Assembly: GCA_020890945.1 (NCBI GenBank) | Contig: JAJHPK010000061.1 | Span: 1-34,770, forward strand | Length of the DNA: 34,770 nt | DNA from: Nitrosomonas sp. | GTDB lineage: Bacteria > Pseudomonadota > Gammaproteobacteria > Burkholderiales > Nitrosomonadaceae | Reading direction: 5' to 3' | Shown here: positions 31,188 to 34,770 of the stretch, in pieces | Numbering within the stretch: the first letter of the stretch is position 1 | How the letters are laid out: each line of letters opens with the position of its first letter | Translations under genes and position numbers: made by a program | The notes under the pieces: generated by a model | What the model saw: the letters and a program-made list of their open reading frames with translations, nothing else | The model's database searches: none | Told to the model about the DNA's origin: nothing

Positions 31188-33944
31188 TCAATGACCCCCT
31201 ATTGGGCTTTGTTGCGCAGCGGTTAATAAATCTTTCCACTGTGAAGGCAAATGCTGTACCCAACCGTTATACACATTGGGTACTGCTAAAACGCCTTGCC
31301 CACCAAAACCTGGTAATGAAATGACCGTATCATCTTTTGCGGTCGTTTCCGTATCCCACAAAGAAACATGACCAACAACATCTGCATCTTTAATGTCACC
31401 ATCACCATTTGGATCAATATCCACAACTGTCAATCGGTTAGAAAACTTACTGGTGACATAGGCATAGTACCCGCCATCTTTCTTCGCGCCAAAGTTCGCG
31501 CCATGACAACCTGGATCGCACGATAACATTTTAACGATCGCACCCGTTTCAGTATTCACGATAACGATTTGACCATCCATTGCAGCAATGACCAAAGCTT
31601 TGCCATCAGGAGATACAGGCGCTTGAATTGGCAATACGCCAACCGCAATCTCTCCATTATTATCGTTATCAGCAAAACTTCCCGTGATAGGATCGTAATC
31701 GGCAATCAGATTAACCGTTTTTTGCAAATTACCTTCACCATCCATAATACTCAAAGAATGATGCAATAAATTGGTAGCAAAAATTTTGCTGGAATCCGGC
31801 ATCATGCCAATAGCGATTGGATGTGCACCCGGAGCATTGTTACCTGTCGGTGTTCTAGCATGAATATCTCCATTAGCACCATAGACACCCACGTCATGCG
31901 TATTAATGTTCGGCGTCACAATCTTAGAACCATCCGCGCTAATCCAGTGTCCATGAGGGTTAGCGGAAATATGTCCTTGCGCTTGTGTTGGAAGCATTTT
32001 CTTTGGCGTCATGGTTCCAGCCGGAATCATGTACAGACCATTTTCGCCGTTAATTGCGATGGTAATGTCATCACTTGTGGGTAACGTAACAACATGTGAA
32101 GGCGAAAAACCAACACGGATATTTTTCACTAACTTACCATCTTCTCTGTTGATAATGGAAAATTTGTTATCAAACCATTGCGTTTGATATATCAATGTTT
32201 GGTCACGATTTGACCACATATTGTGGGGATTATTGTTGTTAATTTCTGGCAATGCGACTTTACGTTTAACCGTCCAATTCGCTGTATCTACAACGGTGGT
32301 CGTACCTGGTTTATATTTGCCAGCGGTTTTTTCAAACTGCGTATTGACCCACACTTCACCAACACCAGGAAATTCAGGCACATTTGATACACCTAAAGAT
32401 TCTTTCTTGTTCAACTCACTCAATGCCAACTCATAACCGTCAACCTTTGTTTCGGTTTTGAAAGGCTCTCCAGAAATTCTGACTGAAGCGCTTTTATTAG
32501 GAAACGTCAAATTCCATGTGCCTGCTTTAAAATCTTGCCAATTGTCAGTCGCGGTTGCGATAAAAAATGTTTTCAACAAGCGTACTGCCAAATCCGAGTT
32601 GGTTGGCAATCCTTTGATTCCTGTAACCAAATCAATTGTGAAATTTTCCTCCCGATCACCCAAATCCAATCCTGTTGTCTTTTTATCATCTACGATCACG
32701 GCTGCAAACATGAATGGATGCACTTTACAAGTAAAAACATACAATCCCGGTGTCTCCAATTTTATGATGGCACCACCACGATACGCGTCTGACTGGTTAA
32801 GCGGCATATGCTTCGCCCCCGTTGGCCACAACAAAGAACTGATCGTATGGACTCCGTTTGTATCCGACATAACAAAATTAACACTGCTGCCAGGATACAT
32901 TACTTCTAGCGATCTTGATTTAATATCAAATGGTAAGCCAACAATAGCATCTCCTCGAGCACTTCTAAACCAGCTTCCACCTTCATCGCTGACTTCAAAA
33001 GTGACCAAACCGTCTTCCTCCTGTCTTGGCCCAAATAAAATTTTGCCATATGGGGACGCGCCAACAACACTCACCCCGTTACCACCTTTTGGATCCACAC
33101 GAAAATTACCATGCATACCGGCTTCCATATGTGCAAACAAGTGACAATGGTATTGCCAACTTCCTGGACCTACACCTGTACCCGCTTTAACTGTAAAAGA
33201 ATGCGTGTCAGAAATATCTTTCATTAACTTGGTATCAATGACTTCCTCGGTTCCTTTTTTCAGCCAACGATGCGCATGTAAATGAAATGTATGTCCTGGA
33301 CCTACTGATAAAATATGGAAACGAACAATATCATCCTCAACGGCTGCTGGAAGCGGATTAGCCCAAAGTGGTTTTTGTTGTGTTCCATCACCAGATATTT
33401 CTGTTCCCCAAAAAGTCGATCCCACCATGTACAACACAAATTGTTTATCGATATCTTTTTGATAAACAGGCGTAATTTTTCCTTTGCCTTCTACAAAACT
33501 ATCGACTGGACCATTTTTATCATCAACAATGATTGCACCAAATAAACCCAGCATTTTCTTTTTACCGCCATGGTAAACGTAGGTGCCTGATTTATTAGCC
33601 TGAATAGTATATTTTTGTGTTTGACCTGGTTTTGTCACTGTTTTGTTATTGTTCTTTAAACCAGGCACATTAAACTCAACATTGCTCTTAGTCTCATTCG
33701 CAAGTGATACATGGATGACATCACCTTGTTTTGCAAATAAGGCCGGGCCTGGAATAACTGCTTCGTCCCCATTTGACCCATTTAGGGCATAACCCACTTG
33801 ACCATTAGGGAGTATTTTTGCAGTCAAATTAAAATTCAATGACGCCGCAAAAGATGAAGATATTGTGAACCATGACACGACCAACAGAATCGCTATAGCT
33901 GGCCTCGAAATAGAAATATCGATTTTAAAAATACTTGTTTTCAT
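31188..33944 (-). CDS. Secreted multicopper oxidase-like protein: three cupredoxin domains fused to a beta-propeller
   Basis: A 918-residue exported protein. I use the ATG at 33944 (GAGGG site eight bases upstream) rather than the GTG at 33962. Signal peptide about 1-34. Domain 1 (about 36-142) is a cupredoxin without copper motifs: E90/N92 stand where HxH is expected, and only His125 of the second motif remains (YVYHGG). Domain 2 (about 155-285) has perfect L3 (H218, H221, H223 in HTFHLHAH) and L4 (HCH at 266-268, H272, M277). Domain 3 (about 310-418) has type-1 ligands H366, C406, H409, M412 in an amicyanin-like CxxHPFM. From about 520 to 918 repeated strands of YVTN-propeller type follow, with a CDPGCH motif at 809-814. 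It lies 29 bases downstream of the broken cupredoxin gene. Confidence 0.9.
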   Translation of the reverse strand: MKTSIFKIDISISRPAIAILLVVSWFTISSSFAASLNFNLTAKILPNGQVGYALNGSNGDEAVIPGPALFAKQGDVIHVSLANETKSNVEFNVPGLKNNNKTVTKPGQTQKYTIQANKSGTYVYHGGKKKMLGLFGAIIVDDKNGPVDSFVEGKGKITPVYQKDIDKQFVLYMVGSTFWGTEISGDGTQQKPLWANPLPAAVEDDIVRFHILSVGPGHTFHLHAHRWLKKGTEEVIDTKLMKDISDTHSFTVKAGTGVGPGSWQYHCHLFAHMEAGMHGNFRVDPKGGNGVSVVGASPYGKILFGPRQEEDGLVTFEVSDEGGSWFRSARGDAIVGLPFDIKSRSLEVMYPGSSVNFVMSDTNGVHTISSLLWPTGAKHMPLNQSDAYRGGAIIKLETPGLYVFTCKVHPFMFAAVIVDDKKTTGLDLGDREENFTIDLVTGIKGLPTNSDLAVRLLKTFFIATATDNWQDFKAGTWNLTFPNKSASVRISGEPFKTETKVDGYELALSELNKKESLGVSNVPEFPGVGEVWVNTQFEKTAGKYKPGTTTVVDTANWTVKRKVALPEINNNNPHNMWSNRDQTLIYQTQWFDNKFSIINREDGKLVKNIRVGFSPSHVVTLPTSDDITIAINGENGLYMIPAGTMTPKKMLPTQAQGHISANPHGHWISADGSKIVTPNINTHDVGVYGANGDIHARTPTGNNAPGAHPIAIGMMPDSSKIFATNLLHHSLSIMDGEGNLQKTVNLIADYDPITGSFADNDNNGEIAVGVLPIQAPVSPDGKALVIAAMDGQIVIVNTETGAIVKMLSCDPGCHGANFGAKKDGGYYAYVTSKFSNRLTVVDIDPNGDGDIKDADVVGHVSLWDTETTAKDDTVISLPGFGGQGVLAVPNVYNGWVQHLPSQWKDLLTAAQQSPIGGH

Positions 33945-33973
33945 TATGTTTTCCCTCAACACATATTCTTATA

Positions 33974-34648
33974 TTAGTTAACTTGGAATTTGCCTTTCAT
34001 ACCCAACAGGCTATTTGATAAGTCTCTATCAATATAGAACGAGCTGTGTTTGGCTTTCACGCTGAATACGTGCTTTTCCAGTGGTCCAATAGCAGCAGTG
34101 TTTATATGTCGATGAGTACCTGGATCAGTCCAGTCGTATCCGGGCAATGCAAATTGATGAATGTCTGTACCCATTGCAATCAAATGAAACCGGACATCGC
34201 TGTTTTTCGCTGCCGCAAGTGATGGGTTTGCGCCATGTTTTGACTGTTTATGGGTTTTTCCATCAATTTCCATACCCCAAAAAGCATCATCACCTAAGTA
34301 CAACACATATTCTTTGTCATATTTAGGAGCATTTTTCGGACTTACAATAATTGCACCGAATAACCCTTTATTTTCTGAACCATTATGACTTTCATAATTG
34401 TGATCATGGTAAGCCCATGTGCCGGCAGTTCCATGTGCAACATTCCACTTATAGTTATAGACGGCATAAGTTTCTTCCAAACCTGCGCCAGCACCCTCAT
34501 CAAAGTTGTGATTGATGACTCTCAATGTGCCATCACTCAAAATATCGTAATGAACACCATGAACATGAATGCTGACCTGTTTACTGATTCCTGGAACACG
34601 CGTTTCATTGCCTGGAATCGCATTAAGAATTGATATGTGGACAACGAG
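33974..34648 (-). pseudogene. Multicopper oxidase-like cupredoxin protein, 5' end removed by insertion
   Basis: The frame stays open from the stop at 33974 up to a TAG at 34649-34651. About 224 codons remain, but no signal peptide or start of the first domain. The TTG at 34538-34540 is inside the domain and cannot be a genuine start. The remaining N-terminal part reads HISILNAIPGNETRVPG, then the L1 motif HVHGVH (34550-34567) and L2 AYHDH, with GLFGAIIV after it: a functional-looking half of the trinuclear copper site. The second domain keeps one His in DIHQFALPG and lacks HCH at L4 (FYIDRDL), ending GMKGKFQVN. It aligns end to end with domains 1 and 2 of the next gene. Expression here is doubtful. 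Confidence 0.85.
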
Positions 34649-34683
34649 CTATGATCATTTCTGGTGTATGGAAGGAGAAGAGA

Positions 34684-34744
34684 GCGGTGTAATCTGTTGA
34701 TAAAGATCTGCCCAGATCAACTATCAAAATAAGGAGAACACCGC
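34684..34744 (+). repeat. Nested inverted repeats over the transposase start region
   Basis: Three nested perfect repeats share one axis: GCGGTGT (34684-34690) with ACACCGC (34738-34744), TTGATA (34697-34702) with TATCAA (34722-34727), and GATCT (34705-34709) with AGATC (34714-34718). The outer arm ends one base before the ATG and the AGGAG site lies inside the fold, so the structure could block translation of a transcript entering from outside. Confidence 0.7.
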
Positions 34745-34745
34745 A

Positions 34746-34770
34746 ATGACAGATAATAATGTTTTTAAAC
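34746..34770 (+). CDS. Putative transposase, first eight codons
   Basis: An ATG at 34746 with AGGAG nine bases upstream opens a frame that runs off the window: M T D N N V F K. This resembles IS256-family transposase N-termini but is too short for a firm call. The strand is opposite to the gene it interrupts. Confidence 0.4.

Follow-up and report, generated by a model that had tools for sequence, protein, structure and literature searches.

In trimeric small laccases of the SLAC type, each trinuclear copper cluster is held between domain 1 of a subunit and domain 2 of its neighbour. Laccases of this type (PDB 8aip, 9ix9 and 3cg8) are the solved structures nearest in sequence to both of two proteins, called A and B here, that are encoded side by side at one end of contig JAJHPK010000061.1 of Nitrosomonas sp.; this entire contig of 34,770 bases was analysed and is referred to as the window. 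SLAC is described as the product of one gene that assembles into a homotrimer with three trinuclear sites (PMC3918160), and a trinuclear cluster takes four histidines from each of two domains (PMC3600357). The six-domain oxidases ceruloplasmin and hephaestin, each a single polypeptide, have one trinuclear site between two domains, and their other possible interfaces are without one (PMC3600357). In the fungal heterodimeric laccases POXA3 and NLAC, the large subunit is itself a laccase and the small partner is of unknown function (PMC3129051, PMC10741624).

The locus shares with SLAC the two cupredoxin domains, motifs L1 and L2 in domain 1, motifs L3 and L4 in domain 2, and a type 1 site in domain 2. 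The profile of A matches PDB 8aip at 3.4e-28 and B matches PDB 4uah at 4.3e-19, which places both in the two-domain SLAC family by sequence. In contrast to SLAC, one half of the trinuclear site is encoded by each of two genes, and B carries extra cupredoxin and propeller domains. Like ceruloplasmin, an enzyme formed by A and B would have one live interface of three, but the halves lie on separate gene products, and neither protein has six domains: A shows two-domain matches over its length, and B combines two domains with a weak cupredoxin match and a propeller. NirK is a two-domain cupredoxin trimer with type 1 copper in domain 1. B matches its profile weakly (Cu_nitrite_red of NCBIfam, 43 bits against a cut-off of 296.3), whereas a cysteine before L3 is present in 0/74 B proteins and the type 1 set of B is in domain 2. 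POXA3 and NLAC resemble the proposed enzyme in working as heteromers, but a half-site split is not described for them in the portions of the papers used (PMC3129051, PMC10741624). A survey of N. europaea counts four or five multicopper oxidase genes and, in the part used here, does not name the A-B pair (PMC6769254). Neither this pair nor a multicopper oxidase divided between two genes is described in the titles, abstract openings and text portions searched, in a collection with few subscription journals.

The distribution of copper ligands suggests that A and B are subunits of one obligately heteromeric periplasmic multicopper oxidase, with the trinuclear site between domain 1 of A and domain 2 of B. 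We assign this reading a probability of roughly 0.8. As a reading of the sequences, the split, obligately heteromeric oxidase is well supported: the ligand partition and its invariance, the adjacency and co-occurrence of the genes and the complete relatives are directly visible, and from there we infer the complex and its stoichiometry, as well as its copper content, its electron path and any substrate.

Ligand distribution in proteins A and B

The features of the intact downstream gene, which encodes protein B, are the following.

31188..33944, minus strand: gene of protein B, an intact open reading frame of 918 amino acids from ATG with a signal-peptide-like start
33660..33671, minus strand: former L1 of B, now N92-V-P94-G, histidines lost (alignment to a SLAC-type chain)
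33564..33575, minus strand: former L2 of B, YHGG, residues 124-127, second histidine lost (alignment)
33276..33293, minus strand: intact L3 of B with H218 (type 1) and H221/H223 (trinuclear), kept in 74/74 B
33114..33149, minus strand: intact L4 of B with H266-C267-H268, H272 and M277, kept in 74/74 B
32709..32849, minus strand: ligands H366, C406, H409 and M412 (type 1 set) of the third cupredoxin domain of B, assigned by pattern
31191..32657 (approximate limits), minus strand: C-terminal beta-propeller of B (TIGR03866 and YVTN matches under cut-off)

Upstream of B lies what is left of protein A, together with the element that interrupts it.

33974..34645, minus strand: remnant of protein A (positions 58-283 of 284 of the A profile, and reading frame)
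34556..34567, minus strand: intact L1 of A, HVHG, both histidines in 76/76 A
34400..34411, minus strand: intact L2 of A, YHDH, both histidines in 76/76 A
34157..34159, minus strand: sole L3 relic of A, the codon aligned with the type 1 histidine, with the HxH pair lost (alignment)
33998..34036, minus strand: former L4 of A, YIDRDLSNSLLGM, without cysteine and histidine (alignment; L4 cysteine in 0/76 A)
34645..34770, no strand: end of a multi-copy insertion-sequence-like element interrupting A (19 further near-identical stretches in the genome)

Protein B begins with the two domains of a two-domain oxidase that retains the L3/L4 half only, followed by the cupredoxin domain and the beta-propeller. 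Its L3 reads HTFHLHAH (residues 218-225) and its L4 HCHLFAHMEAGM (residues 266-277). An alternative GTG start at 33962 would extend the open reading frame to 924 amino acids. Cu-oxidase_3 and Cu-oxidase_2 of Pfam both match above their cut-offs, and the pseudoazurin and propeller matches of NCBIfam all stay under theirs, including a weak TIGR02375 match at the third cupredoxin domain. In an orthologue of B (locus L074, Nitrosomonas oligotropha Nm75), the Lactonase propeller match is above the cut-off. The closest named matches of B are Nitrosomonas records, and full-length homologues occur across many genomes of this genus. For the A fragment, a sub-threshold match to Cu-oxidase_3 is the sole Pfam match.

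The final tally covered 76 A, 74 B and 22 complete relatives (group C), all counted as distinct sequences because several genomes are present twice, as named and unnamed copies. A further 21 frames from cut loci, split frames and other oxidases were set aside, and two complete outside oxidases first counted as A (loci L132 and L133) were moved to group C. All four histidines of L1 and L2 are present in 76/76 A, and either HxH histidine of L3 or the cysteine of L4 in 0/76; one A (locus L193) ends before L3, so that the L3 loss is unseen there, and another has a histidine at the second L4 histidine position. All eight L3 and L4 ligands are found in 74/74 B, and an L1 histidine or the second L2 histidine in 0/74, with the first L2 position still a histidine in 45/74. 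In group C, 21/22 hold all twelve ligands, the exception (locus L150) being without L4 in its frame. An earlier set of 50 distinct A and 50 distinct B had given the same picture, with HVHG and YHDH unvaried in A and HTxHxHAH and HCHxxxHMxxxM unvaried in B. A chance origin of the pattern is ruled out by the absence of exceptions to it in the 76 A and 74 B.

The motif assignments of the original prediction hold in the window as well as across the family, both for A, where L3 is reduced to one histidine, and for B, which has lost most of L2. The loss of L1 in B is also borne out, although its histidines align to N92 and P94 and not, as had been stated, to E90 and N92. A pair member with all four motifs had been named as an observation that would refute the prediction, and none occurs in the family (0/76 A and 0/74 B). 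The proposed complementary loss is thus supported by these sequences: each pair jointly holds all twelve ligands, and those for a complete SLAC-like interface are absent from A alone and from B alone.

It could be argued that A and B are separate proteins that share no cluster, A being a histidine-rich copper binder or chaperone and B a type 1 electron-transfer protein using domain 2 and the cupredoxin domain. The genes are indeed separate and the complex is what we infer; moreover, A is without a type 1 site and B could hold two. However, a type 1 site needs only the first L3 histidine and the cysteine, histidine and methionine of L4. These are present in domain 2 of 74/74 B and not in A, where the L4 cysteine is missing from 76/76. 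The four trinuclear-type histidines of B are also unvaried in 74/74, despite having no partner histidines within B. Protein A holds exactly the four matching histidines together with the domain-1 second shell, and the two genes adjoin and co-occur almost perfectly. This makes separate functions unlikely.

The second-shell residues, named in SLAC numbering by counting along the alignment, follow the same partition. The equivalent of Tyr108 is tyrosine in 75/76 A and is replaced or deleted in B; that of Asp113 is aspartate in 76/76 A and deleted in 74/74 B; that of Asp259, in domain 2, is aspartate in 74/74 B versus 9/76 A. Tyr108 and the copper ligands are named for SLAC in PMC3918160, and Asp260 and Asp114 of a SLAC-related laccase in PMC10419308. 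Near-invariant columns are distributed accordingly, with 33/148 in domain 1 versus 13/107 in domain 2 of A (p 0.047) and 21/127 versus 41/111 in B (p 0.0004).

Gene pairing and probable origin of the split

The original prediction expected a conserved adjacent gene with complementary losses in relatives, and this was found. In a first set that included copies of one genome, A lies directly upstream of 65/71 B frames longer than 600 amino acids. In the final tally, 69/76 A and 72/74 B are members of adjacent pairs, which amount to 72 distinct pairs with an open-frame gap of -79 to +67. The seven unpaired A are accounted for by a split neighbouring B frame, by a cut locus or the edge of a contig, or by genome G011; one of the two unpaired B is at a contig edge and the other has a broken frame. 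Among 125 Nitrosomonadaceae genomes, A occurs in 72, the oxidase part of B in 72 and both in 71. In the genome with B only (G106), the match is a 205-amino-acid frame with two stops. Two genomes carry tandem A-B pairs, two on one contig (G023 contig C193 and G081 contig C155). On contigs labelled as other taxa, a full A-B pair (locus L072, Pseudomonadales) and a separate propeller (locus L081, Acidobacteriaceae) group with Nitrosomonas or Nitrospira genes; these are mis-binned contigs or cases of transfer.

Column couplings between A and B in the 72 pairs fit a contact between domain 1 of A and domain 2 of B, although they are suggestive only. This combination accounts for 23 of the top 50 couplings versus about 10 expected (permutation p 0.004, shift p 0.027, effective n 28), and the strongest one links a column near L2 in A with a column near L4 in B.

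Several observations weigh against an obligately heteromeric oxidase of A and B. The pair is missing from 53/125 family genomes; among the 99 genomes that are at least 90% complete, A is present in 65, and 34 are without the pair. The A copy of the window is broken, and the only genome with A alone (G011) has an intact A beside a B without domain 1 and L3. The coupling signal is small, shared ancestry is not removed from it, and its p ranges from 0.004 to 0.09 across settings. When the ligand columns are removed, the contrast in domain conservation does not reach significance in A (p 0.17) and is modest in B (p 0.012). Tree tests did not discriminate between the possible groupings of A, B and group C, with p-AU 0.395 for A+B and 0.355 for B+C, and A+C in the best tree with support 0 (33 rows). 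Finally, complete two-domain oxidases of a different type are also encoded in the window genome (loci L005 and L006), so a working oxidase does not depend on the A-B pair alone.

Some of these points could also be read in other ways. The absences from family genomes, the broken A of the window and the truncated B of G011 would suit a pair that is degenerating and in the course of being lost. This is very improbable, as the ligand halves are without one change in the 76 distinct A and 74 distinct B frames, and the third-domain ligands H366, C406, H409 and M412 are unvaried in 50/50 distinct B. The further complete oxidases of the window genome might instead each be a partner of A or B in the same cell. 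However, they are remote from A and B in the tree (a branch of 2.18 changes per column), and A and B adjoin each other and not these genes, so that there is scarcely any reason to expect such partnerships.

Homologues outside the family indicate from what the pair was derived. The A profile matches 4 of 369 sampled genomes of the class, namely the window genome, one congener and two from other families. One of these two belongs to an order in which 21/151 genomes match. This order is called methanotroph-like here because that one genome has a pmoA/amoA-family gene; the other outside genome (G170) has none. The outside rows (loci L127, L128 and L132-L152) number 23, of which 22 are from the methanotroph-like order and one is from G170. 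In 22/23, the homologue is a single two-domain oxidase that has all four motifs and is followed by a cupredoxin-propeller gene of its own; L150 is without L4 and without such a neighbour. These outside pairs from the same GTDB class thus resemble the A-B locus in oxidase family and in the cupredoxin-propeller neighbour, but they have one complete four-motif oxidase that is not fused to the propeller.

The completeness of the outside homologue fits reciprocal loss in A and B, and a complete oxidase with a separate cupredoxin-propeller gene is probably the arrangement from which duplication, fusion and reciprocal loss started. A and B each form their own clade in a quick tree (SH-aLRT 100; 64 of 74 prepared rows, L150 excluded), and the B propellers form one clade separate from the propellers of the complete relatives. 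Of the origin by duplication and reciprocal loss that had been proposed, descent from a complete two-domain oxidase is upheld, and a duplication inside the family is not established.

The ancestor would have been a SLAC-type homotrimeric laccase, whose trinuclear sites each combined domain 1 of one subunit (L1, L2) with domain 2 of the next (L3, L4 and type 1 copper). After duplication, copy A may have kept the domain-1 half only and copy B the domain-2 half only, and B would have been fused to the cupredoxin-propeller protein whose gene comes next in relatives. With A and B in neighbouring positions, only the contact of A domain 1 with B domain 2 would have the full ligand set, and a sole complete trinuclear site at this contact would imply an obligate hetero-oligomer. 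The enzyme very probably works only when both proteins join. Electrons would pass from an unknown donor to the cupredoxin domain of B, then to the type 1 copper in domain 2 of this protein, and finally reach the shared trinuclear site and reduce O2 to water there.

If confirmed, this would be a multicopper oxidase whose O2-reducing cluster needs two different proteins while the complete form persists in relatives, so that the transition from a homomer to an obligate heteromer by complementary loss would become directly testable. It would also add to ammonia oxidizers a periplasmic copper oxidase that has no assigned role.

Interruption of protein A in the window

As had been noted from the sequence alone, the upstream protein is broken in the window. 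The A remnant is a 3' fragment just upstream of B that is without roughly 57 residues from the front of the mature protein. Recognisable homology to A ends at base 34645, where a multi-copy element begins that reaches the contig end at 34770. In the window genome (2.68 Mb), this stretch has 19 further copies of 124-131 bases at 99-100% identity and one weak partial match. All 19 are located at contig ends, four of them at base 1-2 and the other fifteen at the final base or the one before it, which makes the element the probable cause of those assembly breaks. The stretch resembles one end of an insertion sequence, at which the assembly is broken here too. The missing front of A was not found elsewhere in the window genome in a search with a relative's sequence, for which there was no positive control. 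The AMO/pMMO subunit family PF02461 has no match in the draft of this genome, perhaps due to repeated amo operons missing from the assembly.

Possible electron supply and function, and further oxidases

A separate cupredoxin-propeller protein is also present in Nitrosomonas and Nitrospira, mostly without an adjoining oxidase. An oxidase with L1- and L4-like motifs stands beside 7/42 long propeller frames, two of the 42 being the long B of a split pair. Seven Nitrospira loci (L083, L084, L087, L088, L089, L090 and L107) have an oxidase frame of 661-711 amino acids with such motifs beside the cupredoxin-propeller gene. Genome G011, of the same genus as the window, encodes a complete two-domain oxidase with HPHG, YHSH, HTVHWH and HCHVNDH (L207:2740-3726), followed after about 350 bases by a separate cupredoxin-propeller protein (L207:4081-5916). 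In another genome (G016), there is no oxidase near the separate propeller. A role of the cupredoxin-propeller protein as an electron donor to oxidases would fit, because it recurs beside oxidases in some lineages.

The enzyme that converts nitric oxide (NO) to nitrite in ammonia oxidizers is given as unknown, or with nitrosocyanin or NirK as candidates, in the parts of the literature drawn on (PMC6478695, PMC6967387, PMC10472526). A more far-reaching proposal would be that the pair is the first split multicopper oxidase from nature: after reciprocal loss, two gene products would together build the trinuclear cluster of an obligate heteromer, which would have a dedicated cupredoxin-propeller electron input and act on an intermediate of ammonia oxidation, for example from NO to nitrite. 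Taken as a whole, this is quite improbable. Given its absence from 53 of the family genomes, the pair cannot be a universal nitrification enzyme, and for this reason the NO oxidase function is kept as speculation only. The pair itself offers no direct hint of its substrate, and none came from ten proteins encoded near it at six loci. These neighbours comprise LuxR-type response regulators (loci L074 and L163), an EAL response regulator and a PepSY protein (L061), a PEP-CTERM protein (L074), a Peptidase_S24 protein (L163), winged-helix regulators (L155 and L159) and two proteins without a family.

Some frames of unusual length were also observed. In genus g27, the B frames of loci L163, L164 and L167 are 981-983 amino acids long, and that of L163 has an insert rich in His, Asp and Arg between L3 and L4. 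The H-x-H-G motif of L1 is absent from two giant proteins of 2054 amino acids (L205:4225-10386, genome G006) and 2062 amino acids (L206:894-7079, genome G034), which have the L3- and L4-like motifs HVFHLH and HCHLYPH. The described six-domain oxidases include an N. europaea protein of 1886 amino acids (PMC3600357), and the two giant proteins may be of the same kind.

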